Shown here one piece after another: positions 36,869 to 57,738 of a stretch of 64,000 bases of DNA (position 1 is its first letter; the number at the start of each line of letters is the position of its first letter). Under the pieces are notes generated by a model. That model worked only from the letters and a program-made list of their open reading frames with translations, had not been told where the DNA came from and did no database searches. The stretch lies in the NCBI GenBank assembly GCA_027023805.1, contig JALVUF010000064.1:1-64000 (forward strand), in the 5' to 3' direction. Both the position numbers and the translations under genes were made by a program. The stretch comes from Helicobacteraceae bacterium. Its GTDB lineage: Bacteria; Campylobacterota; Campylobacteria; Campylobacterales; Sulfurimonadaceae.

Positions 36869-37759
36869 ATGAAACAAATAGCCATTATCGGACCTACCGC
36901 TTCTGGGAAAAGTGATTTAGCGCTTGAATTAGCCCAGCAAACAAGTGCATTCATATTGTCCCTTGACTCACTTAGCATATATAAAGAGATTGATATTGCA
37001 TCTGCAAAGCCCTCCAAGCAGGATTTAAAAAAGATTAAGCATTTTGGTATAGATGAGATATATCCAAATGATACTTTTAATGCCTATACCTTTGCAAAAA
37101 TATACCGACGGGCATTAGATCAGGCAAAAATATCGGATAAGAATCTTATAGTAGTCGGGGGAAGCTCATTTTATCTAAGCTCTATGCTAAATGGCTTATC
37201 CCCGCTACCTACAATAACCAAGCAGGTTCAGCAGGATGTGGATGAGATGCTGTTACATGTAAATGATTGCTATGAGTTGTTACGGCATATAGATCCTAAA
37301 TATATGCAAAATATCAAACCAAACGACAAATATAGAATACAGAAGATGCTTTTAATTTATAAGGCCTCATCTTATACACCCTCACAATGGTTTAGCATGC
37401 ATCCGCCTCGCCCAGTCATTAAAGAGTTGCCAATTTACAATATAGCCGTGCAAAAAGATAATCTAATTCAAAGAATACATGACAGAACAAATATGATGAT
37501 AAAAAAAGGCTTGATTGATGAAGTTGCCGCTTTGGAGCAAAAATATTTCCGCTCATGCAGCAGTATGAAGGCTATAGGTATTATTGAGACTCTGCAATAT
37601 CTTGACGGGCTGCTAACAAAAGAACAGTTAGTCCAAGAGATTGATCTACATACTCGTCAGCTTGCAAAACGACAACAGGTTTTTAATAAAACACAATTTA
37701 AAAATCCTGTAACGGCTTCTCTAAAACAGCTCAGGCAACTGCTTTTCACAAAAGATTAA
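36869..37759 (+). CDS. miaA: tRNA dimethylallyltransferase
   Basis: A 296-residue enzyme that isopentenylates A37 of tRNAs reading UNN codons. It has P-loop GPTASGKSDLA, the DSLSIYKEIDIASAKPS motif, and VGGSSFYLSSML. The open frame extends far upstream through the mqnP region, but ATG 36869 with the standard N-terminus MKQIAIIGPTASGKS is the start. It lies behind a -10 with no leader, and its end overlaps pflA on the opposite strand by 14 bp. Confidence 0.95.
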   Translation: MKQIAIIGPTASGKSDLALELAQQTSAFILSLDSLSIYKEIDIASAKPSKQDLKKIKHFGIDEIYPNDTFNAYTFAKIYRRALDQAKISDKNLIVVGGSSFYLSSMLNGLSPLPTITKQVQQDVDEMLLHVNDCYELLRHIDPKYMQNIKPNDKYRIQKMLLIYKASSYTPSQWFSMHPPRPVIKELPIYNIAVQKDNLIQRIHDRTNMMIKKGLIDEVAALEQKYFRSCSSMKAIGIIETLQYLDGLLTKEQLVQEIDLHTRQLAKRQQVFNKTQFKNPVTASLKQLRQLLFTKD

Positions 37760-40088: not shown

Positions 40089-41597
40089 TTAAAATCCACT
40101 ATTATACACAAATGATGTAATAATTTCCAGTAGCGGATTTACCACAAGAATCGCAAATATTGTAACAATCGCAGCAACTCCTATAACGGTCGATAAAGCC
40201 TTGGAAGTATTCATTGTATAAATTCTACCATGCACATTAGATACCGGTTCTTTCATAAACATATAAACAATTAATTTTAAATAATAAAATGCGGCTATCG
40301 CAGAGTTTAAGACCATAATAACAGCCAAAACGGTAAAGCCGGAAGTAACAGCTGAGGATATCATATACATTTTACCCCAAAAAAGAGCAAATGGAGGAAC
40401 GCCAGCTAAGCTAAGCATAAATATCCCCATAATAACGGCTGCCACAGGTGAAGTATGTATCATTCCTGAAAATTTTTCATAAGGGTGATCTGAACTCTTC
40501 CATTTATCAAGATTTTTTTGACGTGAAATCCATAGCATACTAAATGCACCTAGATTTGTAAAAGTAAATAAAATCCAATATAAAAACAAGGCTGTATTTG
40601 CTTGTGTTGTACCAATTAGTATGGCTGAGAGTACAAATCCTGCGTGAGATATAGAGCTATAAGCTAACATTCTCTTAACGTCTGTTTGAACAAGCGCCCA
40701 GATATTTGAAGCAGTCATGGTTATAACTACGCTGGCATATAATATCACCTCAATCCATGGCAGGCCGCTGTGGACTAAAAACTCAAATAGCCGCATCATG
40801 ACTACAAAGCCGGCAATTTTAGGCACAATAGACATATACCCCGCCATTGATGCGCTTGCCCCCTCATAAACATCCGGCGCCCAGGTATGAAACGGTATGA
40901 TAGCTACTTTAAACGCTAACGCCGCAAATAAAAATACTATACCTATTAAAACATAGGCTAAATTAACATAATGATTGGCAACTAAAATCGAAGCGATTTG
41001 GTGTATCTCTACAGATCCCGTAATCGCATACAAAACCATAGCTCCAAAAACATACAATCCTGCAGCTACTGCACCCATAGTAAAATATTTCACTGCGGCC
41101 TCAAAGGATTTACTACGGTTATGCAGTGCGATGAGAGTATAAAGGGCCAATGAAGCAGACTCTAGTCCCAAGAAGATTAAAATGAGATTATCAGTTGATA
41201 CCATAATCTGAAACCCTGCAATCATAAATAAAAACAGTGCAAAAAATTCAGAATATGAAAACTCATGAAATCTTTTAGATGATAATGCCAACGGCACAAA
41301 TAATAAGGATGCGCCGACAATAATAAACTGTGCAATTAATGAAATGCCGTCAACAACTACTAAATTAAAAAACCCGGTAAAAGTTCCATTTGCAGCAAAG
41401 AAAAATGACAAATCAATTAAAAACCCAAACGACATTATTAAAAACAATAAACTAATAACTACATAGAGGGATTTATTTAGATCTTTTTTAAACAAATCCA
41501 TGATCAAAATAAACAATCCGCCTGCAATCGTTACTAAAATAGGTGCAATAGTTTCAATATTTAGGGACTGCATAGAAAAAGAAATTGGGACTAACAT
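40089..41597 (-). CDS. nuoN: NuoN, complex I membrane subunit
   Basis: A 502-residue antiporter-like proton-pumping subunit with about fourteen membrane helices. The conserved GLESASLALYTLIAL, AFKVAIIPFHTWAPDVYEGA (with the pump lysine) and MLAYSSISHAGF are present. It is the last nuo gene and its start overlaps the nuoM stop by one base. pflA follows. Confidence 0.96.
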   Translation of the reverse strand: MLVPISFSMQSLNIETIAPILVTIAGGLFILIMDLFKKDLNKSLYVVISLLFLIMSFGFLIDLSFFFAANGTFTGFFNLVVVDGISLIAQFIIVGASLLFVPLALSSKRFHEFSYSEFFALFLFMIAGFQIMVSTDNLILIFLGLESASLALYTLIALHNRSKSFEAAVKYFTMGAVAAGLYVFGAMVLYAITGSVEIHQIASILVANHYVNLAYVLIGIVFLFAALAFKVAIIPFHTWAPDVYEGASASMAGYMSIVPKIAGFVVMMRLFEFLVHSGLPWIEVILYASVVITMTASNIWALVQTDVKRMLAYSSISHAGFVLSAILIGTTQANTALFLYWILFTFTNLGAFSMLWISRQKNLDKWKSSDHPYEKFSGMIHTSPVAAVIMGIFMLSLAGVPPFALFWGKMYMISSAVTSGFTVLAVIMVLNSAIAAFYYLKLIVYMFMKEPVSNVHGRIYTMNTSKALSTVIGVAAIVTIFAILVVNPLLEIITSFVYNSGF

Positions 41598-43147
41598 TAT
41601 CTTACCTTCCTTGTTGCTTGACTTGCAAGCGCTAATTTCTCAGATCTTTTAACAAGTGACAATGTGCCGGCTTGTGCTTCTTTATCTTTCATTATTTGTA
41701 CAATATGTGTCACACTTTTTGTTATAGGTCTTAATAGTGGATTTGGATAAACACCTAGCCATACAGCTATAACGACAAGAGGCACTAATGCTAATAATTC
41801 TCTCGTATTAATATCTGGCAAGTGTCTATTTGCTTCATTGGTTATATTACCAAAAAAGACTTTTTTATATGCCGTAAGCATATAAATAGCCCCTACTACT
41901 ATCGCAAAAATAGCTATAATAGCCAAAATATGCGATACTTTAAAAAATCCAAGTAAACTTAAAAACTCTCCTATAAAGTTGATAGTAAGCGGCAATCCGA
42001 CAGATGCCATCATTATAATACCAAAAACAGTAGCATACCTTGGCATAACGTGAGCTAAACCACCAAATTCATCCATCATTTTTGTATGTCGTCTGTCATA
42101 AATTACGCCGACTAGCAAAAACAATGCGCCTGAAACAATACCATGAGCTATCATTAGAAAAACAGAGCCTGAAATACCTATAATATTTAACGAAAAAATA
42201 CCAAGAATAATAATCCCCATGTGCGATATTGAACTATATGCGACAACCTGCTTCAAATCTTTTTGGGCATATGCAACCATAGCAGTATATATAATCATAA
42301 TTAATGACAATATTGCTATTGGATAAACAAAATATTGCGATGCATCAGGAAACATCGGCAGTGAAAACAGAATAAAAGCGTATGTACCCATCTTAAGTAA
42401 AATAGCGGCTAAAATAACAGAGCCTATCGTGGGTGCTTGACCATGAGCGTAGGGGAGCCAAGTATGAAACGGAAACATTGGTACCTTGACGGCAAATCCT
42501 ATAAAAAATGCTATAAAAAGCCAAATCTGATAATTAAGTGGCAGCACAAGATTATACCAATCAGGTATAGAAAAACTCCACACTCCAGTTGTTTGATAGT
42601 AAAAATATGCCATAAAAAGTAAACCTACCAGCATAATCAAAGAGCCGGTAAACGTATATAAAAAGAATTTTACCGAAGCATATATTCGTAAAGGTCCACC
42701 CCATGCACCTATAATATAAAGCATAGGTACTAATGAAAATTCCCAAAAGGCATAAAATAGCATCGCATCAAGAGCTAAAAATACACCGGCCATAGTCATT
42801 TGTAAAAGCAGTAATGTTATAACCATATTTTTGATATTTTTTGTAGGAGTTAATGAAGCTATGCCGATCATAGTAAAAAATGACGCCATAATCACAATAA
42901 AGAGTGAAATACCATTCATTCCAACTTGATAATTTATACCAAAACTTGCAACTACGGGAATCTTCTCAATTAGTTGAAATCCGGCTATATTCGGATTATA
43001 TTTCCACCATAAATCAAGAGATAAAATAAACTCAATAACACCAACTGCTACACCATAAGACCTCATGCTGTTTTTATCAATAATAAATCCGAGAATAGCT
43101 GCTACTGCCGGAAAAAATATAACAATAGATAATATATAATCTTGCAT
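41597..43147 (-). CDS. nuoM: NuoM, complex I membrane subunit
   Basis: A 516-residue antiporter-like subunit. Key regions are YAFWEFSLVPMLYIIGAWGG (conserved glutamate), FAVKVPMFPFHTWLPYAHG (pump lysine) and QVVAYSSISHMGI. It shares one base with nuoL and one with nuoN. Confidence 0.96.
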   Translation of the reverse strand: MQDYILSIVIFFPAVAAILGFIIDKNSMRSYGVAVGVIEFILSLDLWWKYNPNIAGFQLIEKIPVVASFGINYQVGMNGISLFIVIMASFFTMIGIASLTPTKNIKNMVITLLLLQMTMAGVFLALDAMLFYAFWEFSLVPMLYIIGAWGGPLRIYASVKFFLYTFTGSLIMLVGLLFMAYFYYQTTGVWSFSIPDWYNLVLPLNYQIWLFIAFFIGFAVKVPMFPFHTWLPYAHGQAPTIGSVILAAILLKMGTYAFILFSLPMFPDASQYFVYPIAILSLIMIIYTAMVAYAQKDLKQVVAYSSISHMGIIILGIFSLNIIGISGSVFLMIAHGIVSGALFLLVGVIYDRRHTKMMDEFGGLAHVMPRYATVFGIIMMASVGLPLTINFIGEFLSLLGFFKVSHILAIIAIFAIVVGAIYMLTAYKKVFFGNITNEANRHLPDINTRELLALVPLVVIAVWLGVYPNPLLRPITKSVTHIVQIMKDKEAQAGTLSLVKRSEKLALASQATRKVR

Positions 43148-45057
43148 TAATGTACCCCTAAGCTAAGTAAGATTTCGGCTATTTTTGATGGATATTCAAA
43201 TGCTAACCCATAAGCAACCGCCATCAACAGTAAAAAGACCAGACCAAAGACCATCCATTTTAACATAGAAGACAAATTGCCATCTTGAACATATCTTGTT
43301 TTTTTGCCGGTTTTATATAGTGTATCTGCGATTAAGTCAACTGTTGCATCAACAATTTTTAAATCAATACTCACCCAAAAGAAGTTTGACACTCTTGTAT
43401 AGGGAACAACGATACATTTGTTATAAAAATTTGGTATATAGTACTGGTTAAAGAGTAGCTTATAAATAAAATGCTGTTCAAACACTTTGTCTGCCCCCTT
43501 AAATTTTGCATATTTTTGCCATGGATACCAGATAAACAAAACAACAAGAGCCTGAGTTGCTATATTCATGCCCCAAGCCAAAGCTTCAGGATGAACCTCA
43601 TAGATAGTTGACGGCAGCATGTTGGTAATAAAATCGTAAAAAGGCGTTCTAAAAAAGCCTATTATAATCGATAAAATACCAAGTGGTGCCATAGCGAGTA
43701 ACATAAATCTATATGCCTCATGTGGATGAAAACCAAATATTTTATATCTCTCTTCTCCAAAAAATACAAGCCCAATCATTCTAAATGAATAAAATGCAGT
43801 GAGTCCCGCAGTTATCCATATCATCGCATAAATAATATAATGATGATCAACAAAGCTCGCTTCTATGATCGGATCTTTTGAAAAATAACCTGCAAACGGT
43901 ACTAATCCTGCTAATGCCATAGAGGCAATTACCATTAAAATAAGTGTCCATCTCATCTTTTTGCCAAGACCACCCATTTTAAACGGATCCAACTCATCAT
44001 CCATAGCATGCATAACATTTCCCGCACCTAAAAATAAAAGGGATTTAAAAAATGCGTGAGCCACCAAATGAAACAGCGCTATCCAGTATGCCCCCAAACC
44101 AGCTGCAACAAACATATATCCTAGCTGTGAAAGGGTGGAATATGCAACAATGCGTTTAATATCACGATTAACAAGCGCCATTGAGGCTGCAAAAATTGCA
44201 ACAAATGCGCCTAGACTAGCTATAAATTCCCCTATATTTGGAATCATTTGATAAAGAGCATGCGACCTTATAATTAAAAACACTCCTGCTGTAACCATTG
44301 TCGCTGCATGTATCAATGCAGATACTGGAGTTGGACCCTCCATAGCGTCAGCTAGCCATGTATGAAGCGGAAACTGTGCGGATTTACCCATAGCTCCTAT
44401 AAATAAAAACGAACCTATCAAAGTAACGATATAAGGGCTAGCAGACGGCAATGCAGTAAAAACCTTATCATACTGAAGTGACCCTGTAGTATAGTAAATC
44501 ATAAAAATGCCTATCAGCATTCCAACATCGGCTATTCTGTTCATTATAAAAGCTTCATTTGCCGCCCAACTTGCACTCTCCTTATGATACCAAAATCCTA
44601 TTAGTAACCACGAACAAAGACCGACACCTTCCCAGCCTATAAACAAACCGGCAAAATTATCACTCATAACCAATATCATCATTGAAAAGACAAACGCTGA
44701 GAGGTATGAAAAAAATCTATTAAATCCTTCATCATGATCCATATAGCCGATTGAATAAATATGAACAAGCATTGAAACAGTTGTCACCACCATCATCATA
44801 GTAACAGAAATATTATCGACAATAAACCCAAACGGAATATATAGCCCTCCCGTATTAATCCAAGTCATAAGATGGACATGAGCGCTTCCACCGTGCCAAA
44901 CGTCATAAAGCAATATACTACTTGCCGCAAATGAAACAAATAGTAAAAATGATGCAACATACCCAGTGATCTTATTGGCTTTTTTAGCTGTAAACAAAGC
45001 TGAAAATAAAGATCCAACAAGCGGTGCAAACAATGCTATATATAAATAAAATTCCAT
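43147..45057 (-). CDS. nuoL: NuoL, complex I membrane subunit
   Basis: A 636-residue distal antiporter-like subunit with GWEGVGLCSWLLIGFWY, GAMGKSAQFPLHTWLADAMEGPTPVSA and RIVAYSTLSQLGYMF, plus the long lateral helix and its anchor near the C-terminus. Length is normal. It lies 2 bp after nuoK. Confidence 0.96.
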   Translation of the reverse strand: MEFYLYIALFAPLVGSLFSALFTAKKANKITGYVASFLLFVSFAASSILLYDVWHGGSAHVHLMTWINTGGLYIPFGFIVDNISVTMMMVVTTVSMLVHIYSIGYMDHDEGFNRFFSYLSAFVFSMMILVMSDNFAGLFIGWEGVGLCSWLLIGFWYHKESASWAANEAFIMNRIADVGMLIGIFMIYYTTGSLQYDKVFTALPSASPYIVTLIGSFLFIGAMGKSAQFPLHTWLADAMEGPTPVSALIHAATMVTAGVFLIIRSHALYQMIPNIGEFIASLGAFVAIFAASMALVNRDIKRIVAYSTLSQLGYMFVAAGLGAYWIALFHLVAHAFFKSLLFLGAGNVMHAMDDELDPFKMGGLGKKMRWTLILMVIASMALAGLVPFAGYFSKDPIIEASFVDHHYIIYAMIWITAGLTAFYSFRMIGLVFFGEERYKIFGFHPHEAYRFMLLAMAPLGILSIIIGFFRTPFYDFITNMLPSTIYEVHPEALAWGMNIATQALVVLFIWYPWQKYAKFKGADKVFEQHFIYKLLFNQYYIPNFYNKCIVVPYTRVSNFFWVSIDLKIVDATVDLIADTLYKTGKKTRYVQDGNLSSMLKWMVFGLVFLLLMAVAYGLAFEYPSKIAEILLSLGVH

Positions 45058-45059
45058 AA

Positions 45060-45368
45060 CTACCCCTTCATCGAATTCATCTGATCAAGATTAATATTAT
45101 TTTGTCTTTTATACCAAACAATCAATAATCCCAATCCAACTGCAACTTCTGAAGCGGCAACAGCAATAATAAATAGAGCAAACATCTGACCTGTCAGATC
45201 ATGATGAAAATGTGATATTGCCACAAAACCAATATTTACTGAATTTAACAAAATCTCTGTAGAGAAGAAAAGCAGTAATAGATTTTTTCTCCTCATAACT
45301 CCTACTAAACCTATGGCAAATAAAATAATAGATAAAATTAAATAGTGCCCCAACCCAATGCTTATCAT
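45060..45368 (-). CDS. nuoK: NuoK, complex I membrane subunit
   Basis: A 102-residue three-helix subunit: LGHYLILSIILFAIGLVGVM, LLLLFFSTEILLNSVNI with the conserved membrane glutamate, and FALFIIAVAASEVAVGLGL with the second. It overlaps nuoJ by 4 bp. Confidence 0.95.
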   Translation of the reverse strand: MISIGLGHYLILSIILFAIGLVGVMRRKNLLLLFFSTEILLNSVNIGFVAISHFHHDLTGQMFALFIIAVAASEVAVGLGLLIVWYKRQNNINLDQMNSMKG

Positions 45369-45937
45369 ACTAACACCTTGTTTTTAGCTTCTTGTTCCAT
45401 AGCAATCTCTTCTTCTGTCATCAACGTAAGCGATCTATCCATTTTTTTACCCGCAAGCACTATACCGGCGACCATAGCAACTAAAAGCATTATGGCGGCA
45501 AGTTCAAACGGTACTAGATACTTAGTAAACAATACCATGCCTATAGACTGAGTATTTGTAGCACCTTGCAGGGGTGGATATAGAGATACCATTTTATCTC
45601 CTATAATTGGCCCTGCGAAAATCATAATCACAAGTATGGCAGCAACAGTAGACAATGTCACAACAGCACCAGAATCATGCCGTGGCTCTTTAATCTCCTT
45701 AGTTGTATTAAAAAACATCATACCAAAAGCATACAAAGCCATAATGGCACCCGTATAAACAATAATCTGAACCACACCCAAAAAGTCGGCCCCCAACATA
45801 AAAAAGAATCCTGATATAAGTATCATCCCTGCGCCTAGCGAAGTTAATGCATATAACGGCTGCTTAGTAGATACCGTAATATAAAACATGATAATAGTCA
45901 AAATTGAAAATATATAAAATGCTATCGCTTCAAACAT
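45365..45937 (-). CDS. nuoJ: NuoJ, complex I membrane subunit
   Basis: A 190-residue subunit with five helices; VVQIIVYTGAIMALYAFGMM holds the strongly conserved third helix with its pi-bulge region. The C-terminus is a charged tail. It lies 9 bp after nuoI. Confidence 0.94.
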   Translation of the reverse strand: MFEAIAFYIFSILTIIMFYITVSTKQPLYALTSLGAGMILISGFFFMLGADFLGVVQIIVYTGAIMALYAFGMMFFNTTKEIKEPRHDSGAVVTLSTVAAILVIMIFAGPIIGDKMVSLYPPLQGATNTQSIGMVLFTKYLVPFELAAIMLLVAMVAGIVLAGKKMDRSLTLMTEEEIAMEQEAKNKVLV

Positions 45938-45946
45938 AATCTCTCC

Positions 45947-46561
45947 TTAATAAGACAGAGGTGTTTTTTTAACACTCTCATCTTCATGTGGGGTAATTGC
46001 ACCAAAACCTTCAAATTCCTTTTGTGCTCCTGCTTTTAGCATATCCATGGGGGTCAACATATCATCATACATAATAAAGTGTGCCCTTTGTTCAGATGCA
46101 TTTTCATATCTCCCGCCATGAGTAATAGCTAATTCCGGACAAACCTCAGCACAGTATCCACAAAATATACATCTGCCAAGATTAATACTGTACTCACTAA
46201 CCTCTTTTCGAGATTCTTCGTCAATTCTCGTATCTATGCGAATACAATCGGAAATACATATTTTTTCACACAAACCGCACCCGATACAACGCTCTGTTCC
46301 CGATTCCCACAGCCTCTTCATCTCATGAACTGCACGATAACGAGGTCCTATTGGTAGTTTTTCTTTTGGATACTGTACCGTATGGATATTAAATTTAAGC
46401 ATTTCTCGCATTACGACCCATAAACCTACCAGAAGTTCTGCTTTAAATGTACGCTTAATGACTCTTGTAAACTTACCAAGATTAGTAGTTGGATAATCAT
46501 CTATATCTACTAAATAATAATCATCAGATATATTTCTATTTTTAAATTGTTCTATACTCAT
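45947..46561 (-). CDS. nuoI: NuoI, complex I 2x[4Fe-4S] subunit
   Basis: A 204-residue peripheral-arm subunit with two ferredoxin motifs, CIGCGLCEKIC and CIFCGYCAEVC, ligating clusters N6a and N6b. It passes electrons from NuoG towards NuoB. All eight cysteines are in place. Confidence 0.96.
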   Translation of the reverse strand: MSIEQFKNRNISDDYYLVDIDDYPTTNLGKFTRVIKRTFKAELLVGLWVVMREMLKFNIHTVQYPKEKLPIGPRYRAVHEMKRLWESGTERCIGCGLCEKICISDCIRIDTRIDEESRKEVSEYSINLGRCIFCGYCAEVCPELAITHGGRYENASEQRAHFIMYDDMLTPMDMLKAGAQKEFEGFGAITPHEDESVKKTPLSY

Positions 46562-46570
46562 AATACCCCC

Positions 46571-47560
46571 TTAAAACATAACTACAAAGCCGGTAATTAC
46601 AATATTAATGACAGCTAACGGCATCAATACCTTCCAGCATAACCACATAAGCTGATCGGGCCTGACATCAGGCCATGCCGCTCTCGTCCATAAGAAGAAG
46701 AAAAAGAAAAATGCAACTTTACCTAAAAATGCTAAAGCACTAAGTACACTGCCGTCTCCAAAGCCCCCCATAAACACTAAAACTATAACAAAGGAGATAA
46801 AGAACATATTGGCATATTCGCCTATAAAAAATAATCCCCATCTCATGCCCGAATATTCTGTACCAAAACCGTCAATTATTTCATGATCGTTAGCAATTAA
46901 GTGAAATGGGGTACGACCCGTCTCTGCAAACGCAGCTATCCAAAACAAGATAAATGCTATCGGCTGTTTCCAGACAAGCCAATTAGATATTCCACCTACT
47001 TGGTAAGCATTAAAATTAACCAAAGACAAAGATCCTACAAGCATAATCGGAGCTAGTAGTGCTAAACCGGTAATAACTTCATATGACAAAAAAACAGCAG
47101 ATGAACGTGCTGCCGAAATCAAAGAATACTTATTTGATGATGCCATCCCCCCTAAAAGAACTCCAAACAGTCCAACAGCCATCACACCGATAACATACAG
47201 TAGTCCAACAGAACTATCTGTTATAATAGGCTGAACTCTGTATCCAAAAATTGTAAAATCAGGCCAAAAAGGTATGGTTGCTGCTGCCATAAAAGCAGTT
47301 GATGCTGTAATTATAGGTGCTATTTTAAAAATTTTACCTACTACACTCGTGGGTATAATGTCTTCTTTAGTAAAGAGCTTAATTCCATCTGCCATAATTT
47401 GCAATATACCATATGGACCAACACTCATAGGTCCCAAGCGGCGTTGCATAAATGCTAAAATTTTACGCTCAAAATATGTTCCAAAACCGGCTAACGCTGA
47501 AAATACAAGCATAACGATAACTATTTTTATGATAGTCGCGATAATATAATCTATTCCCAT
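46571..47560 (-). CDS. nuoH: NuoH, complex I quinone-channel subunit
   Basis: A 329-residue membrane subunit forming the quinone chamber. GTYFERKILAFMQRRLGPMSVGP is the signature N-terminus, ETGRTPFHLIANDHEIIDGFGTEYSGMRWGLFF carries the conserved acidic loop, and WTRAAWPDVRPDQLMWLCWKVL is the usual end. It starts 1 bp after the second nuoG stop. Confidence 0.96.
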   Translation of the reverse strand: MGIDYIIATIIKIVIVMLVFSALAGFGTYFERKILAFMQRRLGPMSVGPYGILQIMADGIKLFTKEDIIPTSVVGKIFKIAPIITASTAFMAAATIPFWPDFTIFGYRVQPIITDSSVGLLYVIGVMAVGLFGVLLGGMASSNKYSLISAARSSAVFLSYEVITGLALLAPIMLVGSLSLVNFNAYQVGGISNWLVWKQPIAFILFWIAAFAETGRTPFHLIANDHEIIDGFGTEYSGMRWGLFFIGEYANMFFISFVIVLVFMGGFGDGSVLSALAFLGKVAFFFFFFLWTRAAWPDVRPDQLMWLCWKVLMPLAVINIVITGFVVMF

Positions 47561-47561
47561 T

Positions 47562-50051
47562 TTATACTCCCCTTATTGTTGCCTGAGCAAATCTGTAGTG
47601 TCCAAACAGTTTGGATGAATTTAACTCTAAATCAAAAGTAGGTAGCAATGAAATCGTCCCGTCAATTTTATTACTATAAACTACAACTGTTTGTAAGGTT
47701 CCAAATTCGGTCTCTATGATAACACTTTCTCCATCTTTAAAACCATACTCTGTTAATGCGCATTCACTCATATAAATACCTGCTTTTTCATGCAAATTAG
47801 TAGCTTTATTGGTAAATGCATTAAATTGTCGAACAGGATTTGCTAAATATATTATACTATTTTCTAGCTTTAAGCTTCCAAATGGCTCTACACTCTCATT
47901 GGCGTCTTGATTGAACTTCAATACCTCAAGCTTATAGCCCCTTACTTGCGTGCCGTCATTTTTATAAAAATTATCTAAATCATCAAAAGCTACACTGCTA
48001 AACCCTTTGCTTGTTGGCAATTTTTGCGTATATTCTATCGTAAGATCCGCTTTAATTCCAAGTGCGTTAGCAATATCATTTAGTTCATATCCTTTATAAG
48101 CAAGTGCGGCATTAGTCGGCACTACCCGTTTATCTATGTTGGTAAATGTACCCTCTTGCTGATTAATAGCAGGCATATCTAAATCTCCACCACCAAGAGC
48201 CGATAGTACAAAATCTCCTGTATCATTATAGCCTATACAATACTCTCCCGCACTCTCATCTAAGTCACAAATCAGCGAAACTCCAAGCGTATTTGTAGCG
48301 GTCGGTATCATTACTAGTTCAAACTGTGTATATTTTTCTATCAGCGCTACAAGCCTTGCAATATTATTAGACTTTGGATGAGTATATAAGTCAGGTCCGA
48401 CAATTAAAGAAAAGGTATCCTTTTTCTTTAAGAATTTCTCTAATGTTTCAGTAAAATTATCAGGTGCGCCTACAATATCCAAAAGTGCGTTGTCATCAAC
48501 TTCAATCTCTTTGGATACTTTTTTTGGCACCATTTTACTCTTTTGCTCTTCAACCTCTTCCTCTTCACCCGTCTCTTCGTTTTTCTTTTTGACTTTAACT
48601 GTTTGGATCACTTTCTCTTTAATTGTTTCTTCAACAGTAATTGTCTTTTGGGAATGAAAAGATGCTAAATAGTCTTTTAGTTCTTGAGGTAACTGCTCTT
48701 TATCGGCAAACAGATCAAGTAAAAGATATAAAACCGCTTCTTCGGCTAATGGAGCATGATTTATACTCATAACATTTTTACCTATGCCGTTGATAATCGG
48801 ATCTTTAACAGGATGAAAATATAAACCTGCACCTTTGTTCATAATGATAGAGTTATTAAATGCGTATCTTGCAACAGGATTGTCTGTTTTTAATGCAGTC
48901 CCGACAGAGACGACAAAATTTGATGAATGCACCTGCTTTAAATCACTGCCATATAAAGATGTGCCGCTTATTTTGCTGTACTGCTCAAGAAACAACTGAA
49001 AATCTTTTGCATCTTTGTTTATAAGTTTATAGCCAAATTTCTCTTTTAGGTTTTGCAGTATCGATGCTTCTTCATTAGTTATCATTGATGTAAATCTGAT
49101 GCTGTCTGCTCTTTTAAAAGCTTCGATAGCCCTATCAAAAGCTTGTTTATCTTTTTGCTTGACATCGTTTTGATAATCAAAACCATATCTGCCTGCACCG
49201 CAAAGTGAAACATAATTCCATTCATTCATAACACGGTAAATTTTATCATCTGAATTTGAGATATCTGTATGTTTTACATCATAATTGATATGGCATCCAG
49301 CGCTACAATGTCCGCATGCCGCAGGAATTTGTCGAAGCTCCCATGCGTTTGATTTGTACATAAAATGAGTATCCACTAACGCGCCGACAGGACAAACAGA
49401 CGCACATTCACCACAAGACGTGCAATCTAGCATTTCGCTGCCGGAAGTTGTTCCAATAAGTGACTTATTTAACTTATTCCACATAGCATAAGCATCTTTT
49501 GGCATGCTCTCTTTAAAAGTTGTATCAATAGCATCTGCGCCTCTTGGCACGGTTTTTAAAGCATTATCGCCTATCATATCTTTACAAACAGTTACACAAC
49601 GTTCACAGACGATACAAAGACCCGGATCATAATGAATATGTCCCCAATCTTTAGCAGGTCTGTCCACATCTTTTATGCTGTAGCTTTGAAAATCAACATT
49701 CATCTCTAAAGTATAGTTTTGCAGTTCACACTCGCCCGATTGATCGCACACACCGCATTGAAGAGGATGGTTCACATCATAAACTTCCATAATGGAACGT
49801 CGCTCAGTTTCGATATTGTCAGTTGAAGTAACAATATTCATACCCTCTTTAGATTTTGCATTACATGCATAAACCTGCTTACCGTCAGCCTCAACTAGAC
49901 AAAGCCGGCATGCTAAAGTCGGACTACATCTAGTAAGATAACAGATTGCCGGGATAAATATATCATTTGCGCGAGCAGCATTTAAGATATATTCCCCTTG
50001 TGTTGTTTCAATTTCACGTCCATCTATATTTATTTTAATTTTATTACTCAT
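47562..50051 (-). CDS. nuoG: NuoG-like subunit, second copy (829 residues)
   Basis: A molybdopterin-oxidoreductase-like subunit with the full N-terminal cluster set: the 2Fe-2S ligands C37, C48, C51, C63; the His-type motif HPLQCGVCDQSGEC; two 4Fe-4S motifs (CIVCERCVTVC, CTSCGECASVC); and the N7-type CGHCSAGC with a later C in LCGAGRYG. A Lys/Glu-rich insertion of about 48 residues (472-519) is absent from the other copy. It overlaps the first copy by 8 bp. Tandem NuoG genes occur in related free-living Campylobacterota. Confidence 0.9.
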   Translation of the reverse strand: MSNKIKINIDGREIETTQGEYILNAARANDIFIPAICYLTRCSPTLACRLCLVEADGKQVYACNAKSKEGMNIVTSTDNIETERRSIMEVYDVNHPLQCGVCDQSGECELQNYTLEMNVDFQSYSIKDVDRPAKDWGHIHYDPGLCIVCERCVTVCKDMIGDNALKTVPRGADAIDTTFKESMPKDAYAMWNKLNKSLIGTTSGSEMLDCTSCGECASVCPVGALVDTHFMYKSNAWELRQIPAACGHCSAGCHINYDVKHTDISNSDDKIYRVMNEWNYVSLCGAGRYGFDYQNDVKQKDKQAFDRAIEAFKRADSIRFTSMITNEEASILQNLKEKFGYKLINKDAKDFQLFLEQYSKISGTSLYGSDLKQVHSSNFVVSVGTALKTDNPVARYAFNNSIIMNKGAGLYFHPVKDPIINGIGKNVMSINHAPLAEEAVLYLLLDLFADKEQLPQELKDYLASFHSQKTITVEETIKEKVIQTVKVKKKNEETGEEEEVEEQKSKMVPKKVSKEIEVDDNALLDIVGAPDNFTETLEKFLKKKDTFSLIVGPDLYTHPKSNNIARLVALIEKYTQFELVMIPTATNTLGVSLICDLDESAGEYCIGYNDTGDFVLSALGGGDLDMPAINQQEGTFTNIDKRVVPTNAALAYKGYELNDIANALGIKADLTIEYTQKLPTSKGFSSVAFDDLDNFYKNDGTQVRGYKLEVLKFNQDANESVEPFGSLKLENSIIYLANPVRQFNAFTNKATNLHEKAGIYMSECALTEYGFKDGESVIIETEFGTLQTVVVYSNKIDGTISLLPTFDLELNSSKLFGHYRFAQATIRGV

Positions 50052-52299
50052 TATTCACTCTTTTAATTTGTGATTTTTGAAATCTATATTTTATAATCTC
50101 ATGTCCCATATCAAATATAGGATTTAATGCGATCATTCCCTTTAAAGAAGCATCCTCTTTAAATTTACGCATCAACACTACTTGATTGGGAAGAGTTATC
50201 TCGATATTATCCCCATCTTTAATTCTGGCTGCAATTGCAAATTGCGCCGAACCTCTTAACGATGTATCTTTTTCAAGTAATTTAGTTAAATTTGTATAAC
50301 TGTTAAACTGTAAGACCGGATTTACGTGATAAACAATAGTACCGTTAAATTCCGGTAAATCATCAATCTCTTGTAAATCTGACGGATTATTTATTTCAAT
50401 CTCAGTGAGCTTATATCCTCTTACATCTTCACCAAGTTCAGATAAGAAATTATTTAACTCGTCAAACTCTACTCTCTTAAATCCGCAATCTAGCGGAAGC
50501 TCTTTTGTTATATCAATAGTATGCCTATAGCCTAATCCAAATACCGATGCTATGTCATTTAACTCATATCCGCCAAAAGAAAGCGCAGGATTTGTTGCAA
50601 GTACACGTTTATCAATGCTCGTAAATGTACCTTCTTGCTGATTAAGAGCAGGAATTGTCAAATCATGACCCGGTAAACTTGATATAATAAAATCTCCATC
50701 AGCATTATAACCAACTGTGTTTTTTACTGCCTTGTCTTTATCTAAATCACATATCAGACTAACACCCAAAGTATTGACATCTTTAGGAACAATCAGCACA
50801 GAAAAATTACTATATTTTTCTATTAAAGCTACCAGTTTGGCAATATTGGTGGCTCTTTTATGAGATATCACATCTATGCCGACAACTAGAATATTATTTC
50901 TAGTTCTAGATAGTGATTTCATCATAAGTTCCAGCTCATCTTCACCTATGTTGCTCTCAGCACTTAAATACCCTACATCCAAATTCTCAAGATATTCGTT
51001 AGTTTTTGAATCGACTTCACAACGGCTTAAAATATATTTAGCTAAAAGTACTATCACGCCCTCTTCTGTGGCTACTTCATATTTTAAAAATTGCGTGACT
51101 ACATTTTGCATCAAAGCATCTTCAACAGGATGAGCATAAATAATTTTAGCTCCGTTATGCTTAGCGGCAGTTGTCATAGCATAACGCACTCCAGGATTGT
51201 CGCTAGCTATCATAGAACCTATCATAATAATCCCATCAGCCCTTTTTAGTTGAGAAAGGTCTGCACTATAATGTTTTTTACCGCTAACGCTTGAGTATGC
51301 ACTCATAAACTCCGCAAAGAGTCTTGCATCTTCATTGAAAAGTTTTATGCCAAGCTTATCTTTGAGTCTGTTAAGCAGCCATGCCTCTTCATTTGTTATC
51401 ATAGAGGTAAATCTTATAGCACTAGCATTTTTTAATGCTTCTGTAGCCTTACTAAAAGCTGAGATATCTTTCTCTGCTTTTATATCAAAATCAAAGCCAA
51501 ATCTACCCGCTCCGCATAATGATGTAAACTCAAAATTATTTGTAACTCTATAAATGGTATCATCTGCTAAATCAATGCTGGTATGCTTGACCTCATACTC
51601 TAGCGGACAACCTGCGCTACAATGTGCACATGTTGCCGGGATTTTATTAAGCTCCCAAGCATTTGACTTGTACTGAAAATCACTGCTAACTAATGCGCCT
51701 ACCGGACATACAGCTATGCATTCCCCACAAAATGTACAATCAAGAGTATCGGAATTTTTTGGAATTACTTTTGAACTATAGCCGCCAAACTGTATGGTTA
51801 TGGCATCATCACCTATAACTTCATTACATACATGAGTGCACTTTTCGCATAAGATACATAGTGCGGGGTCATAATTTATCAATCCCCAATGCTCAATTGT
51901 ACGCCGCTCATCACGTGCAGAAAAATCTTGTGTACCAACATTAAATTCTAGTGTTTTATTTTGTAAATCACATTCTCCGGATTTATCGCAAACACCGCAC
52001 TCCAACGGATGATTAACATCATAAAGTCTCATGATATTAGTCCGCTCTACATGTAGATCGTGACTATCAGTACTCACTTCTATGCCATTAGCAGCGGGAG
52101 TATTGCAAGAAAGTACAAACCCGTCAACACCTTTTACCTCAACAACGCACATTCTGCAAGATGCGCATGGCGTTGTTTTAGAGATGTAACACATTGTAGG
52201 GATATATATCCCCTCACGGCGTGCTGCTTGTAAAATCGTTTCACCTCTTTGTGCCTGTATATCTCGACCGTTTATCTTAAAATCAACCATGCCGCTCAC
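50044..52299 (-). CDS. nuoG: NuoG-like subunit, first copy (751 residues)
   Basis: A NuoG paralogue with the same cluster set as the downstream copy: CASCRMC for the 2Fe-2S site, HPLECGVCDKSGEC, CILCEKCTHVC and CTFCGECIAVC, and N7-type CAHCSAGC with LCGAGRFG. The C-terminal half has the molybdopterin-oxidoreductase fold, which in complex I has lost its cofactor. GTG 52299 is chosen because AAGGG lies 6 nt before it; an ATG three codons in is possible. It lies 9 bp after the FAD fusion gene. Confidence 0.9.
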   Translation of the reverse strand: MSGMVDFKINGRDIQAQRGETILQAARREGIYIPTMCYISKTTPCASCRMCVVEVKGVDGFVLSCNTPAANGIEVSTDSHDLHVERTNIMRLYDVNHPLECGVCDKSGECDLQNKTLEFNVGTQDFSARDERRTIEHWGLINYDPALCILCEKCTHVCNEVIGDDAITIQFGGYSSKVIPKNSDTLDCTFCGECIAVCPVGALVSSDFQYKSNAWELNKIPATCAHCSAGCPLEYEVKHTSIDLADDTIYRVTNNFEFTSLCGAGRFGFDFDIKAEKDISAFSKATEALKNASAIRFTSMITNEEAWLLNRLKDKLGIKLFNEDARLFAEFMSAYSSVSGKKHYSADLSQLKRADGIIMIGSMIASDNPGVRYAMTTAAKHNGAKIIYAHPVEDALMQNVVTQFLKYEVATEEGVIVLLAKYILSRCEVDSKTNEYLENLDVGYLSAESNIGEDELELMMKSLSRTRNNILVVGIDVISHKRATNIAKLVALIEKYSNFSVLIVPKDVNTLGVSLICDLDKDKAVKNTVGYNADGDFIISSLPGHDLTIPALNQQEGTFTSIDKRVLATNPALSFGGYELNDIASVFGLGYRHTIDITKELPLDCGFKRVEFDELNNFLSELGEDVRGYKLTEIEINNPSDLQEIDDLPEFNGTIVYHVNPVLQFNSYTNLTKLLEKDTSLRGSAQFAIAARIKDGDNIEITLPNQVVLMRKFKEDASLKGMIALNPIFDMGHEIIKYRFQKSQIKRVNNE

Positions 52300-52308
52300 A
52301 ACAAACCC

Positions 52309-54345
52309 TTACACGGCTGTCATTGCTATATAATAGCAACGCATGCATCTGTCTGCTTCGTTCATAGCTTCATCTTGAGTAAAACCAAGATTGACCTCTT
52401 TATTGTTATATTTACGATTATGAGCGTCTAGCTTTATGCTTACTTCGCGTGCAAGTCCTGGCAGCCAGCCTGTTACTTTTTCATTTTTGTCGTAAACACG
52501 CATTTTTCTTAAGTGGTCTTCCATTATCTCATCATCACTTAAACTTATTTCTCCTGTTTGAACATATCTGGCAATAACTGAAGATGCACGTTTTGCCTGT
52601 CCTACGGCATTAACAATAGTCATTGGACCATATTCACAGTCACCTGATGCAAAAATACCTTTGCGTGATGTCATGTAATCCTTACCGTTAGTTTTAATAG
52701 TTGCCCAGGATGTCATTTTTAACTCCCACTCAGAAGGCAATAGATCCAAATTAGCACTTTGACTAACCGCAGGCACTAAATAATCAGCCTCTATATTGTA
52801 TGACTCGCCTTCAATCTTAACAAGTTGTGCGCGACCTCCATTTGGATCCGGCACCAATTCAAATTTATCTATAAGCAAAGAAGTTATTTTGTCATCCTCG
52901 TCAGTTATAATAGTATTAACTGCCGAATGAAATAAAAACTCAACCCCCTCTTCTACTGCTTCATGGTATTCTTCATAAGTAGTATTTCTTATAATTGTTT
53001 TCTCATCACGGCGATATATCATGTAAACTTTTTTAGCATTAGCGCGTATAGAACATCTAACTACATCCATAGAAGTGAATCCGCCTCCCACACAAACAAC
53101 CGTCTTGCCTGTTAGATCAATATGGCTGGCAGGGAGCATATACCGCTCCTGCTCCTCTTTAGAGATGGTGTATCCATATTTTTCAAATAAGTTGATCTTA
53201 TCTAAAAAATCTATAGCACCCCAGTATCCCTTTATCTCTTCGCGTTCATTGTTGCAACGAACTTTTTTAGATATTCTAGTACCTGTTGCAATCATAACAG
53301 CATCATAATCGTTTTCAAACTCTCGCATCATATCAGCATTAACTCTAGTGTCTGTTATAAAGTTCACACCCAAATCTTTAACACACTCTATATCTTTGTT
53401 GTATTTCTCAATAGGCATACGATACTGAGGTACACCCACAGCCACTTCTCCGCCTAACACCGGCAACTCTTCATAAACATCAACATCAATACCTTCTAAT
53501 GCTAGATAATATGCGGTTGTGAGTCCCGCGGGGCCTGCACCGACAACTACGACTTTTTTGTTAATTTTAGGTTTTTTCTCAGCAGGATGAAAAAATCCAA
53601 ATCCATGATCTGTTTCATAATCAGCACCGAGACGTTTTAATTCCATAATAGATATCGGTTCATCCAAGTTTGTTCTTCTGCATGCATCTTCACACGGATG
53701 TGGACAAACACGACCACAGGTATGAGCCAATGGCATAGTTTGCCTTGTAGCTATAAGTGAGTCATCTAACCTCAAATCTCTTACGCCTTCTATATAACCG
53801 GGGATATCGACATGCGCCGGACATGCATCTGTGCAAGGAGCTGTAATTTTTGCAATATAGTCGATATCTGCATCATAATGCTTAGAAGGTTGTTTTTCAT
53901 GGATACATCTCATAAAATCATCTTCAAAATGTGTAATAATATCCAATATTGGAGTCGGTACTGTCTTGCCAATCTCACATTTTGAAGTGGTTTGCATAGT
54001 TTTGGAAACCTCTTTTAGATGCTCTATATCTGATAGCTCACCTTCGCCTCTTGCGATTTTGTCAAGCATATCATACAATATTCTGCCACCCCAACGTCCC
54101 GGTGCACATCTGCCGCAAGCCTCAGAATAAACTTGATACTGTGCCGCATATTCAGTAGCTAAGCGAATAACATCCACATCTTCATTGAATATCGCAACGC
54201 CATCCCAGCCAATAAAGGCTTTAGATTCACGATAACTATCATACATAACCGGTAAATCATAAGCTGACTCTTCCCACTCCTCTTGCCGCTTGTTTATGTT
54301 ATTGATAAATTCACCGTTCCAAGTGGAAAAATATACTTTACTCAC
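52309..54345 (-). CDS. NuoF-type Fe-S domain fused to GltD-like FAD/NAD(P) oxidoreductase
   Basis: A 678-residue protein occupying the nuoF position. Residues ~40-150 match the C-terminal 4Fe-4S domain of NuoF: EACGRCAPGRWGGR (C77, C80) and SKCEIGKTVPTPI (C123), but the third cysteine of CxxCxxC is Gly83. Residues ~170-225 are the GltD-type double cluster region (C171, C175, C210, C214, C218, C222). Then come FAD-binding VVVVGAGPAGLTTAYYL (266-282) and an NAD(P) site VCVGGGFTSMD followed by YRRDE, whose arginines favour NADPH in GltD relatives. It likely feeds electrons into NuoG in place of NuoEF, by inference. Confidence 0.85.
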   Translation of the reverse strand: MSKVYFSTWNGEFINNINKRQEEWEESAYDLPVMYDSYRESKAFIGWDGVAIFNEDVDVIRLATEYAAQYQVYSEACGRCAPGRWGGRILYDMLDKIARGEGELSDIEHLKEVSKTMQTTSKCEIGKTVPTPILDIITHFEDDFMRCIHEKQPSKHYDADIDYIAKITAPCTDACPAHVDIPGYIEGVRDLRLDDSLIATRQTMPLAHTCGRVCPHPCEDACRRTNLDEPISIMELKRLGADYETDHGFGFFHPAEKKPKINKKVVVVGAGPAGLTTAYYLALEGIDVDVYEELPVLGGEVAVGVPQYRMPIEKYNKDIECVKDLGVNFITDTRVNADMMREFENDYDAVMIATGTRISKKVRCNNEREEIKGYWGAIDFLDKINLFEKYGYTISKEEQERYMLPASHIDLTGKTVVCVGGGFTSMDVVRCSIRANAKKVYMIYRRDEKTIIRNTTYEEYHEAVEEGVEFLFHSAVNTIITDEDDKITSLLIDKFELVPDPNGGRAQLVKIEGESYNIEADYLVPAVSQSANLDLLPSEWELKMTSWATIKTNGKDYMTSRKGIFASGDCEYGPMTIVNAVGQAKRASSVIARYVQTGEISLSDDEIMEDHLRKMRVYDKNEKVTGWLPGLAREVSIKLDAHNRKYNNKEVNLGFTQDEAMNEADRCMRCYYIAMTAV

Positions 54346-54354
54346 AGCATGTCC

Positions 54355-54579
54355 CTATTCTTTTTTTACTACGATAGTCCAATCGACTTCGTTAAATTTT
54401 AATGAATTTAATAATTCATATTGAGCTTCTTTTACTATATCTGCCGAACGCTGAATTGGAGAAAAATCACCAATTTCAAACAAGAATATACCGACTTCAC
54501 CTTTTGGATGAGACGATAGAATCTCTTTCATTCTAGGTTCAAACTCTTTTTTTAAAGGTCTTAAATCATATCTTTTCAT
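54355..54579 (-). CDS. Small NuoE-position protein (74 residues)
   Basis: A 74-residue soluble protein where nuoE stands in other bacteria. It has no thioredoxin-like 2Fe-2S cysteines at all; visible stretches are [15 protein letters not shown]-like ([19 protein letters not shown]) and [10 protein letters not shown]. It corresponds by size and place to the Cj1575c type of Campylobacter. It overlaps the nuoD stop by 4 bp. A structural adaptor between the input module and NuoC/D or NuoG is plausible. Confidence 0.75.
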
Positions 54580-55814
54580 CTATCTACCTCACCAAAAACA
54601 ATATTTGTAGTACCTATAATAGAGACAACATCCGGAATATAATGCCCGGGAAGCAGATCTGTCAAAACACCGGTGTGCCAAAATGACGGCGCGCGCAATT
54701 TTAATCTATACGGATAAGGACCGCCTTGAGAATTGATATAAAAGCCAAGCTCACCTTTTGGAGATTCTGTCGCTACATAAACCTCTCCAACCGGCGGTCT
54801 CATACCTTGAGTTATAAGCACGAAATGCTGCATTAAAGAGTAGTTTTGCGTCATGATATCAATTTTTGGCGCCGAAATATATCTGGGCGAATGAGCCATA
54901 AGTGCCGTGTCGTTATCTTTTACGACTTTATCATACATATCTGCTACTTGCTCTAAAATATGCGCTGATTGTCTCATCTCCTGCATATAGATACGATATC
55001 TGGCATAGTTGTCGCCTTTATCTGAGACGGGGACTTTAAAATCAACCTCATCATATAGTTCATAAGGCTCTTCTTTGCGAATATCCCAAGCTATGCCGCT
55101 GGCTCTTAGCATTGGACCGGTACATCCCCATGAAAGCGCCATCTCTTTTGATAAAACACCGACATTCTCCATCCTCATCAGCCAAATACGGTTTTTATCA
55201 AGCAGATCTTCATAATCTTTAATATCTTGTGGAAATTTTGCTAAAAATTTTCTTAAATTTGCTATAAAATTGTCCGGCAGATCAAGGGGAACACCACCTA
55301 TCCTGATAGCTGCGTGGGTTAATCTAGCTCCACAATAGTCCTCAATTAAGTCCATCAAATACTCACGTTCTCTAAAGCCGTATAAAAATACCGTCATAGC
55401 TCCGATATCAAGAGCTGTCGTAGCTAGCCAAAATAGATGAGACATTAGTCGGTTTATTTCCAGCAAAAGCATACGAATTACTTTAGCACGTCTTGGTACC
55501 TTGACATCAATTAGCTTTTCAACCGCTAAAGCAAATCCATAATTGTTTGAACTTGATGCAATATAATCCATCCTATCAGTTGTCGGCATAAATTCATTAT
55601 AAATCATATTTTCCGCCATCTTCTCCATACCGCGATGAAGGTAACCGATATCCGGATGAGCTTTTGTTATCATCTCTTGCTGTAGATGAAGCATAAGGCG
55701 CAACTGTCCATGAGAAGATGGGTGTTGGGGTCCAAAGTTTAAAATAGCTTCATTATCTTCGCGCTCAAATGTTATATTTTCAAAAAACGGTCTTAATCTG
55801 TTTGGTTGCTGCAT
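54576..55814 (-). CDS. nuoD: NuoD, complex I 49-kDa subunit
   Basis: A 412-residue subunit related to the hydrogenase large subunit that lines the quinone pocket. [36 protein letters not shown]-type stretch [12 protein letters not shown] and [29 protein letters not shown] are conserved. It is separated from nuoC by 6 bp, not fused with it. Confidence 0.96.
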
Positions 55815-55820
55815 ATTCTA

Positions 55821-56627
55821 CTACCTATCTCTATCTGTAATAATTATAGATTTATTTTCATCAAACTTATCTATCATAAACACGCCGCCCTCTTCTTGAT
55901 AGGCTAAAGGCTGCTTTTGTTCATTTCCTGTAATCTTTGTTCCTTTTGGAACTTCATGACCCAGTCGTGCAAAGCGCTCGCTATCATACCTGTCAACTCT
56001 GGCGGTATCACGAATCTCAGGACCTATAATTTCTCGCGCCTCTTTGCCGTAAATCTTATCTACCTCATACCATGCGGCAAACTCATCACCTTCTAGCGGA
56101 TAAGTTTTAAGCAGCGGATAGCCTTCCCAGTCATATGGCATTAAAATACGTTTTAAAAACGGATGATTATTTGCTTTTATCCCAAACATATCATACATTT
56201 CTCTTTCAGACCAATCAGCACTGCGAAAGAGCTTTTCAACACTATTGATTGCTTCATCTTTGTCTATAAAACATTTTATGCGAATACGTTTTCTTTTTTC
56301 CATTGATAATAATTGATAAAAAATCTCAAACTGATTTTGTTTAGCCAACCAGTCAATAGCACTCATTTCAGAGAGCTGTGTATAATCCAGTTTATCCCGC
56401 AATAACTTCAAAACTTTATAATTATCGCTTGCATTAATATACACAACCATCTGTCCTATTTGGATATAGGCATCATGAATTGTAAAGTTTTCTTTTAAGA
56501 CAGTCAAATCAGAAGCGAAAACCTCATCACTGCTAACATCTTGTTTTGGTACCTGTGGAGATACATAAAATCTATCTGTATAATAAGGCTTCGCCTGTAC
56601 ATTATCTTTAGGTTTATAAGTTCTCAT
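55821..56627 (-). CDS. nuoC: NuoC, complex I 30-kDa subunit
   Basis: A 268-residue subunit. [23 protein letters not shown] and the signature [34 protein letters not shown]-type region identify it (only key parts: [25 protein letters not shown]). It has about 60 N-terminal residues beyond the core and a C-terminal extension ([13 protein letters not shown]). Confidence 0.94.
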
Positions 56628-57137
56628 CTATATCAACCTCTTTTTCACTTGTGATTTATCTGCTTTTTGAGCCCTTATCTTTTTTTGCAGCAACATAACA
56701 CCATACTGTAGTGTCTCAGGACGCGGTGCACAGCCTGGCAAGTATAAATCAACAGGAATTATCCTGTCAACGCCTTGAACAGTAGAGTAAGTGTTAAACA
56801 TGCCACCTGTATTTGCGCAAGAACCCATGGAGATAACCCATCTAGGCTCTGCCATTTGGTCATATAGTCTTTTAATAAATTCGGCATGTTTTTTTGTTAG
56901 AGTCCCGGCAACTATCATAACATCAGACTGCCTTGGAGAAGCTCTAAATATCGTACCGTATCTATCAAAATCAAAACGAGAAGCACCCGATGCCATCATC
57001 TCTATACCACAGCATGCAAGGCCGTATGTAAGTGCCCATACTGAATTGGATCGTCCCCAGTTTACAACTTTGTCAATCGTTGTAAGTGCAACAGGCAAGC
57101 CGCCATCTTGTGAATAATTTACTTTATGCTGTGCCAT
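56628..57137 (-). CDS. nuoB: NuoB, complex I N2-cluster subunit
   Basis: A 169-residue subunit holding the terminal cluster N2, ligated by the tandem cysteines in [16 protein letters not shown] and GCAPRPE. I moved the start from 57221 to ATG 57137, which has AAGGAG at proper distance and gives the usual N-terminus; it then overlaps nuoA by 19 bp. Confidence 0.95.
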
Positions 57138-57508
57138 TGCAGGGCTCCTTTTCTCCAAGCGTATATAAAACCGATTGCTAATAAAACTATAAAACCTATC
57201 ATCTCCGTAAAGCCAAACCAACCAAGATATTTAAAATCAACCGCCCAAGGAAACATAAAAACTATCTCCACGTCAAAAAGTATAAAAAGCAAGGCAAATA
57301 GATAAAATTGCGGTGACAACCTGTTTGGCTGTTTTGTAACTTCAGGCCCACATTCATAGATAGAGAGCTTTATCTTTTCCGTATCTTTAGATGCTAAAAA
57401 ATGACTTACAAAATGTGCCATTTTTGTAGTTAAAGTAAAAGCACCGAAAGTTAATGCAAATAATAAAAATGCACCTAGATATGCGTGCGCATGATATATA
57501 TGCTCCAT
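57119..57508 (-). CDS. nuoA: NuoA, complex I membrane subunit
   Basis: A 129-residue three-helix subunit: [24 protein letters not shown] (signature), and [10 protein letters not shown]-like [23 protein letters not shown] 57508 is chosen over 57559 because GGGGA precedes it by 5 nt. It is the first gene of the operon. Confidence 0.95.
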
Positions 57509-57738
57509 GTAATCCCCACTTATGTTATTGTTTACTCTAATCACGATAATACCAAGCAAAGCATAAAGACCCGCTTATATAATTTTGCCGCAAGCCAAAT
57601 ATTATCGAAAGAATAATTTGCATTACTATAACAAAATAAATATTAAATAAATAAGTAATCTTATAGTTCAATCTAAGCTATGTTACAAATTGTAATAGAT
57701 ATATATTTTAGATTACAAAAGTGTGTCAACATGTAACA
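57509..57738 (-). promoter_or_regulatory. Intergenic region upstream of the nuo operon
   Basis: About 230 bp without a supported gene. On the minus strand TTGACA (rc of 57724-57729) is followed 17-18 bp later by TATATA, a weak promoter, and ATTATATAAG near 57580 is another candidate -10. A 13-bp dyad TTACAAATTGTAA (57683-57695) and inverted TGTTACA/TGTAACA at 57681-57687 and 57732-57738 look like operator DNA. Which of these acts cannot be told by eye. Confidence 0.4.

Follow-up and report, generated by a model that had tools for sequence, protein, structure and literature searches.

A tandem NuoG pair and a NuoF-GltD fusion in the complex I operon of Campylobacterales

The nuo operon in the window (the 64,000 nt stretch of DNA analysed, from a genome of 1.64 Mb in 73 contigs that its named relatives place in the Sulfurimonadaceae) contains two adjacent nuoG genes, nuoG1 and nuoG2. 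The key to this pair is the gene upstream of nuoG1, which stands where nuoF is expected and joins the C-terminal 4Fe-4S domain of NuoF (PF10589) to a GltD-like FAD/NAD(P) enzyme (the GltD fusion). Together, nuoX, the GltD fusion gene and nuoG1 form a three-gene module, and in the loci examined every gain, loss or transfer of NuoG1 involved the GltD-like subunit too. We consider it probable (roughly three chances in four) that NuoG2 is the in-line subunit and that the same complex I carries an extra NAD(P)H-linked arm made up of NuoX, the GltD fusion and NuoG1. The pair is the product of one old duplication, is widespread in the Campylobacterales and is not unique to the window. The open literature searched yielded no account of the pair, nor of a kinship between NuoY and NuoG; Sievert 2008 and Weerakoon 2008 may mention it.

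The nuo operon

The operon is encoded on the minus strand between about 57.5 and 40.1 kb, in the order nuoA, B, C, D, nuoX, the 678 aa fusion gene, nuoG1, nuoG2 and nuoH to N (Table 1). The conserved nuoA-D and nuoH-N core of complex I (NDH-1) is thus contained in a single operon. The NADH-oxidising NuoE and the NuoF with an FMN domain are missing, NuoE being replaced by an HP1264-like protein, and no gene for a full-length NuoF or HydB (FMN, NAD) was found in the window's nuo operon. The AAA+ ATPase gene that adjoins nuoA was also found in 25 of the compared nuo loci (families f1, f8, f9, f10, f11 and f12), and its product is possibly a complex I-linked chaperone or regulator. A TPR protein gene lies immediately 3' of nuoN.

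Table 1. Features of the nuo operon and its flanks (positions in the window)
Feature	Position	Strand	Remarks
TPR protein	37746-40064	-	N-terminal DUF7494
nuoJ, K, L, M, N	40089..45937	-	
nuoI	45947..46561	-	
nuoH	46571..47560	-	
nuoG2	47562..50051	-	829 aa; ATG start 50051, stop 47562; read as the in-line NuoG
NuoG2 Lys/Glu-rich insertion (residues 472-519)	48495..48638	-	variable loop, predicted beta-hairpin
nuoG1 stop/nuoG2 start overlap	50044..50051	-	8 nt, ATGAGTAA
nuoG1	50044..52299	-	751 aa; GTG start 52299, stop 50044; read as the NuoG of the NADPH-type module
Region coding for NuoG1 residues ~340-750	50050..51282	-	includes ~340-515 and ~640-750, both surviving as NuoY
NuoG1 motif LDVGYLSAESNIGEDE (residues 440-455)	50935..50982	-	common to NuoG1 and NuoY, absent from NuoG2
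GltD fusion gene	52309..54345	-	678 aa; NuoF C-terminal 4Fe-4S domain and GltD-like FAD/NAD(P)H oxidoreductase; occupies the NuoF place
N3-like site CGRCAPG of the GltD fusion (residues 77-83)	54097..54117	-	third canonical Cys is Gly
nuoX	54355..54579	-	74 aa; homologue of FMN-binding HP1264 (PDB 2lxr); occupies the NuoE place
nuoD	54576..55814	-	
nuoC	55821..56627	-	
nuoB	56628..57140	-	ATG start likely
nuoA	57119..57511	-	ATG start likely; named from position and listed translation
AAA+ ATPase	57739-59472	-	577 aa; winged-helix and AAA domains

For comparison, some 70 nuo loci were retrieved from across the order, and all genomes listed in the phylum searches belong to the same order as the window host or are nearer to it. 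Among the numbered families, f1 corresponds to Sulfurimonadaceae (named records) and f2/g30 to Helicobacter (identity of NuoX to HP1264), while f3 and f10 were assigned, more tentatively, to Campylobacteraceae and Sulfurospirillaceae.

The two NuoG copies

A first-pass annotation had described tandem NuoG copies, both with all cluster motifs and neither decayed. The gene coordinates proved exact, and 20/20 cluster ligands are present in each copy. NuoG1 and NuoG2 score 899.6 and 1198 bits, respectively, against the Campylobacterota NuoG equivalog NF006305 (cut-off 591 bits). Both have the features of the NuoG family, namely the 2Fe-2S cysteines (37/48/51/65 in NuoG1 and 37/48/51/63 in NuoG2), the His-type 4Fe-4S site (H-x3-C-x2-C-x5-C), further 4Fe-4S ligands (two CxxCxxCxxxC and one CxxCxxxC...C) and an FdhF-like C-terminal fold. 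The predicted structure of NuoG2 is of low confidence in the cluster domain. No further NuoG of either type was found elsewhere in the whole genome.

Among relatives, the ligands of NuoG1 are intact in 33 of 34 sequences, the exception (L153) having lost six, and dN/dS for pairs of full-length NuoG1 is 0.03-0.17. Those of NuoG2 are conserved in 68 sequences, except for the N7-type set, which is lost in 24/68, and two other ligands lost in L220. The N7-type losses are in the NuoG2 of families f3, f7, f9 and f10, where CCCC is replaced by N, S, E, H and other residues. They track clades rather than the state of NuoG1, and were rejected as a correlate of NuoG1 loss.

Across loci, nuoG1 and nuoG2 are close or overlapping (-92 to +6 nt, mostly -8 or -4), and because the genes overlap they are very likely co-expressed. 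A NuoG1 query found matches in 150/151 Sulfurimonadaceae genomes, some of which could stem from NuoG2. Among 80 named-organism loci retrieved with NuoG2, NuoG1, NuoG2 and the GltD fusion were complete in 56, and the remainder were broken by contig ends or lacked the module. The nuoG2 gene was present in every examined nuo locus of this type, and among complete loci there was no case of NuoG1 without NuoG2. In a tree of the cluster domain, NuoG1 and NuoG2 group together (98/96), separate from canonical NuoG; NuoG2 forms one clade (100/100) and NuoG1, weakly, another (60/81). This topology indicates a single duplication that preceded the split of the sampled families.

The first-pass annotation had also drawn attention to a charged insertion in NuoG2 at residues 472-519. 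The insertion is real (K or E at 24/48 residues) and is K/E-rich where present, but the aligned segment (466-522), 57 aa long in the window, varies from 3 to 83 aa among relatives, and there is hardly any insertion in f6, f9 and some of the f2/f3 loci. The emphasis placed on it therefore found no support, and it was rejected as a functional feature. AlphaFold models it as a two-stranded beta-hairpin with moderate confidence (pLDDT about 60-75), and we regard it as a variable surface loop.

The GltD fusion and NuoX

The GltD-like part of the fusion carries a conserved FAD motif, GAGPAG at residue 269, as in GltD/NfnB-type enzymes, and the GltD Fe-S cysteines (Cys 171, 175, 210, 214, 218, 222, 667 and 670) are invariant in 34 homologues. 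The N3-like site reads CGRC[AT]PG, with Gly at the position of the third canonical Cys in 34/34 homologues. The canonical route may therefore not hold for electron transfer between GltD and NuoG1. By homology to the NADPH-dependent GltD/Nfn/Stn chains, the fusion would be predicted to use NADPH rather than NADH. A search for it on plasmids gave a single distant match. Loci L235-L238 (family f2, genus g49, a Helicobacteraceae-type genus) have longer versions of the GltD fusion (890-962 aa), of NuoG1 (805-1046 aa) and of NuoG2 (919-1012 aa), whereas their NuoD and NuoH are not enlarged.

NuoX is homologous to HP1264 (E 4e-21), which has been shown by NMR and fluorescence to bind FMN (PMC6269979). 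Its location between nuoD and nuoG is that of the epsilon-type (NuoXY) complex I. The short, cluster-less NuoY of that type is missing from the window, where the full NuoG1 is found instead.

NuoY as a remnant of NuoG1

A full NuoG1 accompanies the GltD fusion in 33/33 loci (the L155 copy, 507 aa, is broken by a contig end) and is found in none of the 36 loci that lack the fusion. In 35 of these 36, a protein of 229-343 aa is encoded between nuoX and nuoG2. Against a background of 1779 ORFs, an HMM of the NuoG1 C-terminal part matched all 35 short proteins (E 1e-18 to 1e-65). It always did so far better than the NuoG2 C-terminal profile, which was the better match for none. They align to NuoG1 residues ~340-515 and ~640-750, and the cluster domain and residues ~515-640 are missing. 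The motif LDxGYLSAESNxGEEE (NuoG1 440-455) is found in 27/34 NuoG1 and 33/35 NuoY, and in 0/68 NuoG2. Three of the short proteins were tested against Pfam and NCBIfam; none matched a Pfam model, and two matched the NuoG model weakly, far below the cut-off. Derivation of NuoY from NuoG2 or from a canonical NuoG was rejected by the profile comparisons.

Over 74 residues, the nuoX product of locus L223 shows 100 % identity with HP1264, and the gene that follows nuoX therefore corresponds by position to HP1265, which has been listed as NuoF (PMC3561388). In Campylobacter, Cj1574c and Cj1575c have been described as replacing NuoE/NuoF (PMC4178425). As far as that source reports, citing Weerakoon and Olson 2008, Cj1574c, probably with Cj1575c, passes electrons from flavodoxin to complex I in C. 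jejuni. Judged by these profile, motif and position data, NuoY (HP1265/Cj1574c, named NuoF or hypothetical) is a NuoG1 stump without clusters.

Loss and transfer of the module

Some Sulfurimonadaceae lack the GltD fusion. Of ten such loci assessed (L251, broken by a contig end, was excluded), six have stumps of 271-312 aa, one (L255) has a 483 aa intermediate that lacks the cluster region only, and three (L252, L254 and L256) have no usable NuoG1. The recent stumps share about 40-47 % identity with NuoG1 over the best segment. At L252 and L213 no remnant of NuoG1 was found, L254 has pseudogene traces and L256 has an 88 aa piece. The stump is thus not indispensable, and NuoG2 with NuoX alone seems to be viable.

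At least 11 changes in the state of NuoG1 are required by a tree of the core nuo genes from 79 loci. In a tree of stumps and NuoG1, the Helicobacteraceae-type stumps nest with the full copies of their own family, and a single origin of all stumps was rejected (p-AU 0.02, with a caveat for long-branch effects). The dN/dS of the NuoY stumps is 0.10-0.29, which indicates purifying selection and hence a NuoY that is functional rather than decaying. The cluster domain and GltD are lost together, and the C-terminal domain of NuoG1 is usually retained.

One locus records a transfer. In L239, a single MAG from family f10, the best matches of nuoB, C, D, G2, H, I and J are in f10, whereas those of the GltD fusion (79 %) and nuoG1 (64 %) are in f4 and those of nuoX likewise in f4/f8; trees agree with the similarity result. 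From these affinities, a foreign nuoX-GltD-nuoG1 block appears to have replaced the resident one beside the native nuoG2. An assembly error is possible, and would need two junctions within one operon.

Proposed arrangement and alternatives

The first-pass annotation had offered two ideas for the pair, one longer electron wire, or alternative subunits for different donors. The overlap of the genes, the loss of NuoG1 with GltD and the retention of NuoY favour the longer wire and count against alternative subunits. That NuoG1 travels and vanishes with the GltD subunit, and that its stump is NuoY, suggests that both NuoG are in one machine. As complex I of Campylobacter and Helicobacter runs with NuoG2 as the sole NuoG-type cluster carrier, NuoG2 would have to be in-line. 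Gene content, joint loss, the homology of NuoY, the module transfer and purifying selection are results of the comparison, whereas assembly into the same complex, the electron path, NADPH specificity and direction are what we infer; the structure models are of single chains.

In the proposed arrangement, the two NuoG of this Campylobacterota-type complex I would be non-redundant. NuoG2 would hand electrons to NuoI, with NuoX, the NuoF(4Fe4S)-GltD fusion and NuoG1 docked on the same complex as an additional arm. Electrons would pass, in either direction, between NAD(P)H, the FAD of GltD, the GltD 4Fe-4S clusters, the N3-like site, the NuoG1 clusters and the NuoG2 clusters, and from there via NuoI and NuoB to menaquinone. 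In autotrophs the wire would probably be reversed, with quinol and the proton-motive force yielding NADPH and/or a low-potential carrier; a proposal for Nautilia has reverse electron flow reach NAD(P)H by way of a partial complex I (PMC2628731). NuoX, with FMN, is a plausible entry for flavodoxin/ferredoxin common to all lineages. A lineage that drops the NAD(P)H function would shed GltD along with the cluster domain of NuoG1, whose C-terminal domain would usually persist as a structural subunit, NuoY. In StnC, GltD feeds a NuoG-type wire within one chain, and Stn assembles through StnC-StnC contacts made by the FdhF-like and N-terminal domains (PMC10482914). A similar contact between NuoG1 and NuoG2 would account for the survival of the NuoG1 C-terminal domain after the clusters have gone.

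Were the two copies instead alternatives, one or the other would enter each complex I particle as set by donor or growth condition. The complete ligand sets, and the match of both copies to the same equivalog, suit this. However, the genes overlap in one operon, the copies have diverged to form distinct groups and one motif is confined to NuoG1/NuoY, NuoG1 is never without NuoG2 in complete loci, and a stump under purifying selection lies beside NuoG2 in 35/36 GltD-less loci; we regard alternative use as quite improbable. Nor can much weight be given to NuoG1 as a redundant copy kept by inertia and heading for loss. Many independent truncations and some complete losses are what such a copy would show, but the duplication predates the sampled families, ligands and dN/dS in full-length copies point to constraint, and loss of the cluster domain is always tied to loss of GltD, leaving redundancy very unlikely indeed.

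It is also unlikely that NuoX, the GltD fusion and NuoG1 make up a soluble NAD(P)H:ferredoxin-type oxidoreductase of the Stn/Hyd kind, independent of complex I and having no more than an operon in common with it. The three genes do act as one module able to move en bloc, and soluble StnC unites GltD and NuoG domains (PMC10482914). Against this, the operon lacks the NuoF or HydB gene noted above, the NuoG1 C-terminal part usually persists between nuoX and nuoG2 after GltD and the clusters are lost, and Cj1574c of C. jejuni is, in the account of PMC4178425, active in complex I.

Relationship to known systems

Of the closest known systems, the epsilonproteobacterial NuoX/NuoY complex I (Cj1575c/Cj1574c in C. 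jejuni; HP1264/HP1265 in H. pylori) has the same operon order, NuoX and a NuoG2-type NuoG. It differs in that the window has the GltD fusion and a full, all-cluster NuoG1 at the nuoY position. In the Stn transhydrogenase (Sporomusa ovata StnABC, PMC10482914; PDB 8oh5), a NuoG-type cluster chain whose FdhF-like C-terminal domain is inactive is likewise connected to a GltD-like FAD/NADPH domain. However, Stn is soluble and bifurcating and has StnAB (HydBC-like), whereas the window module sits in a nuo operon that encodes no StnAB-like FMN subunit. The partner of GltD is NuoG in StnC and the NuoF 4Fe-4S domain in the window, where GltD and NuoG are on separate chains. Canonical NuoEFG (Escherichia coli, Thermus thermophilus, Aquifex) shares the NuoG fold and ligands and the rest of the operon, but the window lacks full NuoE and NuoF and has two NuoG, each with two complete ferredoxin-type 4Fe-4S motifs.

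Significance

On balance we lean, by no means firmly, towards a wider picture in which many free-living Campylobacterota have a complex I with two NuoG in series and two entries, an NADPH arm and flavodoxin/ferredoxin at NuoX, and the NuoX/NuoY of Helicobacter and Campylobacter would be the remains of a system whose NADPH arm was lost repeatedly. The graded series of losses and the one module transfer found in nature make the model directly testable. It would give an origin and a likely role to a subunit, now listed as NuoF or hypothetical, that has long been a puzzle in the complex I of two major genera of pathogens. It also predicts a two-NuoG complex I with an NADPH arm in autotrophs of vents and sediments, and bears on how bacteria that use the rTCA cycle make NADPH and low-potential electrons.
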